A stretch of 37,455 bases of DNA from an uncultured Lachnospiraceae bacterium (lineage in GTDB: Bacteria; Bacillota; Clostridia; Lachnospirales; Lachnospiraceae), in the NCBI GenBank assembly GCA_947175435.1, contig CAMWMS010000007.1:1-37455 (forward strand). Reading direction: 5' to 3'. The position numbers were made by a program, and so were the translations under genes. Shown one piece after another: positions 1,915 to 16,665 of the stretch. Within the stretch, counting starts at the first letter, position 1; every line of letters starts with the position of its first letter. A model generated the notes under the pieces. The model did not search any database. It was given only the letters and a program-made list of their open reading frames with translations, and was not told the origin of the DNA.

Positions 1915-3522
1915 ATGAATGAAAGATCACGTGGGATGATATCCGACAACAGTACAGAGCTCACATTGGCGGAGGCGTGTTATTTCGGTTTCTTTATACT
2001 GCTGTCCGTCACAAAAGGGCTGGGGCTTTACGAGGGGCAGAAGCTTTTTGAGCTGCTTGTGCTTCCGGCGCTTCTTCTCGGTATTGCGAAAATATTGATT
2101 ACCCCGTACACGAAGAGACAGTGGATCGTACAGATCCTGCTGCTTATTCTCACGGCAGTGGTTTTTTATAATTCCCATGAACGGGGAATACTTTTCCTTT
2201 CCTTCACGGTGCTTGGTATGAAGAATATTTCGGTCAAGAGAGTGTTCCATGTAGGTCTGTGGGTATGGTCGTTGTGCTCGATTGTGCTGAGTATTTTCTC
2301 TTTCTTTCGGCTGGAGCATACGGTTTACCGTGTGCATGCCAAGCTGGGGATGGGACATATTTTCAGGTGGAGCCTTGGGTTTTCGCATCCTAATATTCTG
2401 CATATTACTTATCTGGCGCTATGCGCATTTATTATCTATGAATTGGGAGAAAATTACAGGTTTCAACATTTTATATATATGATGGCGGGCAATGTGCTGG
2501 TGTTTCTCTACTCGATCAGTTACACGGGGTTCGGAATCGTGGCAGTGCTGCTTGCAGGATGTATGTATGTGCGGTTTCGACCGAAGTTTTGCATTGTGGA
2601 GAAGGCTTTTGCGAATCTGGTACTGCCGGTTTGTCTGATGTTGTCGTTTGTGGTTCCGTTTTATCTGTATGATCGCAAATGGGCATATTATGTCCAGAAA
2701 TTGAACTTCATGTTAAATACCAGAATCTGGCTTGCAGAGCAGTTCCTCAGATCGGAGTACAGGAGTCTGTTCGGGGCGGATATTTCCAAGATCGTGAAAT
2801 CCTCCATGACAATGGACAACTCCTATGTGTGGGGCTATATCAATTACGGGCTGGTTGCCTTCGTGATCATCATGATCGGTTATTTTGGTCTGTTATTCTA
2901 TACTACGTATAAGCAGCGGACGAGAGAGCTTGTGATCCTGATTTGTTTCCTGGGGGCAGGCTGGACGGAGCCGCTGTTGTTTAACACTTCTTTTAAGAAC
3001 GTTACGCTGATCTTTATGGGAAGTTTTCTTTTTCTGCAGAAGGAAGGGGCGCAGGAATACTGTCTGTTGCCACAGATGAGTCGGAGAGTTACGGTGCCAT
3101 TGGCAGGGTTGCCGGATCAATTGTGGAATAGGGTGCGTGACATTTGGACCCGGAATCGGGGCAAGGTCATCGGTATGACGGCGGCAGGTGCGGCGGTGGG
3201 CCTTATGTTGTGCGCGATCCTGTATAAGCCACCGGTCGGGTATGTGGTGCAGCGCTTCTATACGGATGGTCTTGAGGAAACTTCTGTATACGTGAAAAGC
3301 ATGGAAGATCCTGACTATGCGGGATGGAAGATCATGAACTATGCAGACAAGGACACGCCTATGCAGTTGGTGCAGGGACAGGCGGTACGGTTGGAGACAT
3401 GCAGATATTATGTGGGAAGCGCATTGATCGGAGGTTTTCTGGGAATGGCGGCAACCATGGCATATTACGGAGCGGTGAAAGGCGGCGGTCGAAGACGCAG
3501 TGCGACGGAGAGAGCACGCTGA
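1915..3522 (+). CDS. Wzy/O-antigen-ligase-like polysaccharide polymerase with extra C-terminal two-TM extension
   Basis: Polytopic membrane protein with a LGFSHPNILHITYLAL segment typical of Wzy/EpsG-type polymerases; C-terminal TM, soluble, TM extension. Confidence 0.7.
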   Translation: MNERSRGMISDNSTELTLAEACYFGFFILLSVTKGLGLYEGQKLFELLVLPALLLGIAKILITPYTKRQWIVQILLLILTAVVFYNSHERGILFLSFTVLGMKNISVKRVFHVGLWVWSLCSIVLSIFSFFRLEHTVYRVHAKLGMGHIFRWSLGFSHPNILHITYLALCAFIIYELGENYRFQHFIYMMAGNVLVFLYSISYTGFGIVAVLLAGCMYVRFRPKFCIVEKAFANLVLPVCLMLSFVVPFYLYDRKWAYYVQKLNFMLNTRIWLAEQFLRSEYRSLFGADISKIVKSSMTMDNSYVWGYINYGLVAFVIIMIGYFGLLFYTTYKQRTRELVILICFLGAGWTEPLLFNTSFKNVTLIFMGSFLFLQKEGAQEYCLLPQMSRRVTVPLAGLPDQLWNRVRDIWTRNRGKVIGMTAAGAAVGLMLCAILYKPPVGYVVQRFYTDGLEETSVYVKSMEDPDYAGWKIMNYADKDTPMQLVQGQAVRLETCRYYVGSALIGGFLGMAATMAYYGAVKGGGRRRSATERAR

Positions 3523-6792: not shown

Positions 6793-6845
6793 GAATGGCA
6801 CTGTGTAATACTTATGATTTTACTCTACAGCTAACCAATGCATTA

Positions 6846-6982
6846 GCTCGATCTGCGGTTAATTTCTTAAGGAGCCCCTTAAAAAGCGTCTGCACTTAGC
6901 GAGGTTTTTCACGAGCTTAGTGTCAGCTACGCTTTTTACGGAGCGGGAGCGAGGCGACGAAGAAATTAACCGCAGGTCGAGC
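6846..6982 (+). repeat. 137-nt structured intergenic element, copy A: 23-bp terminal inverted repeat around a 91-nt core
   Basis: Left arm 6846-6868 GCTCGATCTGCGGTTAATTTCTT pairs with right arm 6960-6982 AAGAAATTAACCGCAGGTCGAGC (22 Watson-Crick pairs + 1 G.T/U). Inner stem AAAAAGCGT (6881-6889)/ACGCTTTTT (6929-6937). Core 74/91 identical to the reverse complement of copy B. Confidence 0.9.
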
Positions 6983-16478: not shown

Positions 16479-16528
16479 GATGAAGGCTTGAGGTGATTAT
16501 TTACGTCCACGGGTTATCTAAGACGGAC

Positions 16529-16665
16529 GCTCAGAGGGAAGTCAATATCTTCGTCGCTGCGCTTTCGCTCCGTTCCGAGCGTAGCGGACACTAAGTTCGT
16601 GGAATACCTCACTAAGTGCCGACGCTCTCCAAGGGGCTCCTTAAGATATTGACTTCCCTCTGAGC
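16529..16665 (-). repeat. 137-nt structured intergenic element, copy B (inverted relative to copy A)
   Basis: Perfect 23-bp terminal inverted repeat GCTCAGAGGGAAGTCAATATCTT (16529-16551) / AAGATATTGACTTCCCTCTGAGC (16643-16665) around a 91-nt core 74/91 identical to copy A after reverse complementing. Confidence 0.9.

Follow-up and report, generated by a model that had tools for sequence, protein, structure and literature searches.

A widespread structured, RNA-like element with a hypervariable closing stem in the Lachnospiraceae, carried in several lineages by small transposons

Two folded elements of 137 nucleotides, located in a 37,455-nucleotide stretch of DNA from an uncultured Lachnospiraceae bacterium (GenBank assembly GCA_947175435.1, contig CAMWMS010000007.1; hereafter, the window), belong to a large family that is present in about a third of the Lachnospiraceae genera tested and is absent from Rfam 15. 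The core of the element is conserved, while the long stem that closes it takes almost any sequence and yet stays paired. In several lineages the element is carried by small transposons. The most likely interpretation is that of a transposon-carried structured RNA cassette, homogenised by recombination, although the role of the RNA is inferred only.

Occurrence and extent of the element family

Copy A occupies positions 6846-6982 (+) of the window, and its terminal stem (P1) is formed by arms at 6846-6868 and 6960-6982 (23 nt each, 96% complementary, 91 nt apart). Copy B occupies positions 16529-16665 (-), with its left (5') arm, in element orientation, at 16643-16665 and its right (3') arm at 16529-16551 (23 nt each, 100% complementary, 91 nt apart). 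When aligned in element orientation, the cores differ at 17 of 91 positions and the arms at 9 of 23. These observations confirm exactly those of an earlier note, which had described two intergenic elements with a conserved core and compensated changes in the arms. The predicted folds are far from chance: copy A folds at -71.9 kcal/mol (z -7.8) and copy B has a z-score of -8.4, about 8 standard deviations below dinucleotide shuffles, and 0 of 200 shuffles were as good. The + strand of copy A folds 9 kcal/mol better than its complement. Copy A lies between a glycosyltransferase and a radical-SAM/SPASM gene, while copy B lies between two glycosyltransferase genes of one polysaccharide cluster.

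The family extends far beyond these two copies. A BLAST search with copy A of the genome from which the window derives (termed G000; 3.17 Mb, 293 contigs, 82% complete) detected about 40 copies, and a covariance model built from 38 of them raised this number to about 65 distinct sites (116 rows, many of which are the weak antisense match of the same palindromic site). Copies A and B scored 147.5 bits (E 4.9e-29) and 142.6 bits (E 6.0e-28), respectively, against this model. The variants include deletion forms of 67-74 nt that keep P1, as well as forms of 148-178 nt with an extra stem or an extended apical loop. In an initial scan of 60 relatives, copies were found in the same genus and none in 24 genomes of other families of the order. 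In a family-wide sample, 65 of 200 Lachnospiraceae genomes matched, nearly all of different genera, whereas in a class-wide sample 5 of 196 genomes matched, and all five belong to this family. A pattern for the inner hairpin gave at least 114 exact hits in GTDB species (titled records are Lachnospiraceae/Clostridia), including Hungatella, [Clostridium] symbiosum, Butyrivibrio, Pseudobutyrivibrio and Faecalicatena. Some of these represent the inner hairpin alone: the motif CTTAGYGAGG...CACGARCTTAG also occurs alone or in tandem in other Lachnospiraceae, outside the full element (loci L213, L231, L249, L265 and L275), in L249 among tRNA genes.

No Rfam 15 family matched at the gathering score in the window, in copy A with its flanks even at E<=5, or over the elements in 28 loci of other species. 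The only nearby hit was a Clostridiales-1 RNA (RF01699, 87 bits) at 2699-2906 (+) of locus L334, about 120 nt from an element copy at 2444-2581, which it does not overlap. Likewise, no match was detected in the phage or plasmid collections, and no paper on Lachnospiraceae MITEs, REPs or RNA motifs of this kind was found among the open-access papers searched.

Predicted structure and the constraint on one strand

The consensus is a three-way junction, comprising P1, a short P2, a long inner arm (P3-P5) that holds a tandem G.A motif (5'-CGAG on both strands), and P4, a 3-bp hairpin with a GNRA loop. In copy A, the long inner hairpin arm spans positions 6877-6940 (+) and carries the motif as CGAGG...CACGAG; G56 A57 and G68 A69 of the element are invariant in the alignment of copies from this genome. 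The region of the P4 hairpin with its GNRA tetraloop (GC GGGA GC) follows at 6941-6951 (+).

Within this genome, 27 of 51 pairs were compensated. In 78 copies from many species, 95.9% of the pair cells were standard pairs and 44 of 51 pairs changed on both sides, while in 51 copies from other genera the corresponding values were 95.6% and 46 of 51. In contrast, partner-shifted controls for the latter set paired at 32-44%. These alignments are fitted to the model and thus lean toward it; nevertheless, the size of the gap to the controls, together with the appearance of all four Watson-Crick pair types at nearly every P1 position, would be hard to obtain in this manner. P1 is hypervariable, such that 53 arm clusters share a mean identity of 0.37 and yet stay paired. 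Some of the palindromes run further out than 23 bp (loci L329 and L333).

Notably, 122 of 128 parsed P4 loops are GAAA, GAGA, GGGA, GGAA, GCAA or GCGA, all of which are GNRA, and the P4 base pair is G.U in 32 of the 51 copies from other genera. In the arms, G.U outnumbers A.C by 105 to 42, or by 63 to 34 when one event is counted per arm cluster (p = 0.004). These features point to constraint on one strand, the strand of copy A that reads +, and are taken here to reflect an RNA, although single-stranded DNA is not excluded.

Mobility and the separate evolution of arms and core

The terminal arms are not the edge of the mobile unit. In this genome, conserved flanks (CCAATACCCA / GTCCGTCTTAGATAA) and an outer inverted repeat, GTTACTGTTCA / TGAACAGTAAC, lie outside the arms, and the unit measures ~197 bp (GTTACT...AGTAAC). 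The left flank of copy A (6835-6845, +) is a degenerate form of CCAATACCCA, whereas the right flank of copy B (16512-16528, -) carries GTCCGTCTTAGATAACC, a conserved flank of the unit in this genome; the outer repeats of both copies are decayed. The outer inverted repeat is retained in 18 copies with at most 3 mismatches at either end. The sequences just outside these repeats match each other only in the right register (0.47 versus 0.26 identity over the 9 positions tested, p < 1/2000), and the position profile indicates an 8-bp target-site duplication. The earlier note had seen no obvious duplication, as it is decayed in most copies, but it is perfect at the copy on contig C31 (CAATGCTT) and at C2:41733 (TATTGAAA). 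Copies with decayed ends show almost no such signal; they appear to be old, yet their arms still pair. No autonomous element with GTTACTGTTCA ends was found in this 82%-complete genome, and in other genera the copies shown mostly lack these flanks and ends.

In a sister species (G023), the same module sits inside a 189-bp MITE with the terminal inverted repeat (TIR) CAATGTCATTAAGTTAAG, in roughly a hundred or more copies (258 TIR matches), and a perfect 10-bp duplication was observed in 10 of 13 copies checked. An IS of 1,711 bp with the same TIR (locus L183) encodes a 436-aa IS4-family transposase (NF033592, E 5.8e-37; PF01609), although that IS copy itself shows no clear duplication. Copies in [C.] symbiosum have similar ends. 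Thus, one module rides in at least two unrelated transposon shells. Interestingly, many insertions of the 189-bp MITE in G023 lie in small hairpins of the type GTAACAGTTCAGCC-GAAA-GGCTGAACTGTTAC, whose arms match the outer repeat of the elements in G000, thereby forming nested repeats. Moreover, eight contig ends of G000 (C45:97, C61:15193, C71:32, C96:11426, C134:32, C156:39, C241:30 and C266:3209; loci L157, L160, L163, L166, L169, L172, L175 and L178) begin with the IS4-type end CAATGTCATTAAGTTAA. All of the junctions lie in the element at TTRCGGAGCG or its like, so that an IS repeatedly targets one site in the element with a ~10-bp duplication.

Orthologous sites show that arms and core separate in both directions. 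In loci L312 and L317 (genomes G437 and G285, flanks ~93-96% identical), the core is nearly unchanged, while both arms are largely replaced and still paired. Conversely, at C77/L209 the arms and flanks are nearly the same and the inner hairpin is changed on both sides together, and at C134/L238 the arms and flanks are the same and only the apical loop differs. At C1:70223/L235, most of the core is deleted in one, and one arm pair shows a compensated change from C-G to T-A. Although the number of sites compared is small, the simplest account would be the exchange of cores between dispersed copies by recombination, with site-specific arms kept paired either by selection or by the copying of one arm from the other, as suggested in the earlier note.

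Interpretation and related elements

The element is most likely a transposon passenger that acts as RNA when read through from neighbouring promoters, an inference made in the absence of transcript data and of promoter enrichment upstream of the copies. P1, with about two or more helical turns of near-perfect duplex and no sequence rule, would most simply serve as a processing or stabilising stem of the RNase III-substrate type, which cuts out or insulates the element in transcripts and makes insertions near genes tolerable; this suggestion rests only on stem length and sequence indifference, and on analogy with MITE families reviewed previously (PMC3733652). More tentatively, the module may be old in the Lachnospiraceae and picked up by different transposons as a shared passenger, its terminal stem being actively renewed at each site, with both arms replaced together and pairing kept, so that each copy carries its own private duplex while the core is homogenised across the genome.

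A less likely alternative is that the constraint acts on DNA, such that the strand folds as single-stranded DNA during replication or transposition, and P1 stays paired because one arm is repeatedly copied from the other by template switching within the hairpin. The inner hairpin indeed swaps G-C for A-U with almost no G.U intermediates, which fits block exchange better than stepwise RNA selection, and whole-arm replacement was seen at one orthologous site within ~5% overall divergence. In addition, there are deletion derivatives of 67-74 nt, and a minimal, perfectly palindromic derivative (C51:14921-14987) looks like a fold-back product. The preference for G.U and GNRA could also be met in part by a single-stranded DNA hairpin, since G.T mismatches are tolerated in DNA as well. 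However, the predominance of GNRA loops and of G.U in the P4 base pair is a one-strand pattern that pure palindrome correction does not produce, and G.U exceeds A.C in the arms. In this genome, the possibility that the arms are captured host hairpins was rejected, because conserved flanks lie outside them, although this is not excluded in genera without those flanks.

It appears unlikely that the copies are stand-alone small RNA genes, each with its own promoter, acting in trans. Neighbouring genes are further away on the 5' side than on the 3' side (medians of 196 versus 63 nt in this genome, p=0.00015; 128 versus 43 nt in other genera, p=4e-7), although the distances are approximate owing to simple longest-ORF gene calls. 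Close pairs are mostly head-to-head (17 head-to-head, two of which are orthologous, 4 tandem and 0 tail-to-tail), as divergent transcripts would be. Nevertheless, no enrichment of sigma-70-like promoters was found upstream in any of three copy sets, no conserved unpaired guide-like segment stands out, and ~65 diverged copies per genome would be unusual for a trans-acting sRNA. Least likely is a role as a cis-regulatory leader, riboswitch or transcription terminator. Copies are intergenic and often within 60 nt of a gene end, but their orientation to neighbouring genes is mixed (16/12/7/2 in one set and 18/16/12/3 in another), and the flanking genes are of unrelated families, with no Pfam family in more than 3 of 68. 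Furthermore, copies A and B face opposite ways in a one-way gene cluster, and no T-run follows the 3' arm. Among the readings offered in the earlier note, a structured RNA and a MITE-like element hold together, whereas operon punctuation is not supported.

Among known systems, the element works like the prokaryotic MITEs with RNA folds, namely bcr1 of Bacillus cereus, ERIC and YPAL of Yersinia, NEMIS of Neisseria, EFAR of Enterococcus and RUP of Streptococcus pneumoniae. These are intergenic and non-coding, 70-300 bp in length, foldable as RNA and mobilised through TIRs by transposases, and such elements are reported to alter the stability of neighbouring transcripts (PMC3733652). Those listed are each tied to one or a few related species, whereas here one structural module spans dozens of genera, has a terminal stem of almost free sequence and occurs in unrelated shells. 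REP/BIME palindromes are also high-copy and extragenic, and often occur in inverted pairs, but REPs are 20-40 bp with a GTAG tag and are tied to Y1 transposases (PMC3733652). No Y1_Tnp gene (PF01797) was found in G000, while 5 of 14 control genomes gave a match, and the present element is much longer and multi-helical. The G023 form may also be compared with IS4-family mobile insertion cassettes or MITEs in its IS4-family TIRs and ~10-bp duplications, yet it carries no gene but a conserved structured module that also exists outside IS4 ends. IStrons similarly ally a structured RNA module, the group I intron, with a DNA transposon, a possible way to make insertions harmless (PMC4227781); no group I intron model in Rfam matched the element, and splicing is not implied.

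The combination of RNA-like covariation, transposon mobility and concerted evolution in one object offers a direct test of how palindromic arms co-evolve, by RNA selection or arm copying, and of whether transposons carry RNA modules that make insertions tolerable. The element is also a possible marker for strain typing and annotation in this dominant gut family, and a warning that covariation screens will report it as a new ncRNA when it is at least partly mobile DNA.

No autonomous transposon was detected inside head-to-head pairs: spacers of 54-598 nt were, by eye, non-coding or tandem repeats, and the ~0.9-2.2-kb intervals in loci L234, L313 and L320 hold ordinary genes. In locus L116, the spacer of a head-to-head pair (between 671 and 888) is a degenerate tandem array of ~21-bp units resembling AAAGTCAATACCCAGCAGAC, of which the conserved left flank of the element looks like one unit. 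Finally, a second, unrelated palindromic repeat family of ~300 bp lies next to several copies in G000, to the left of C33:1069, C115:1974, C108:7610 and C139:3652.
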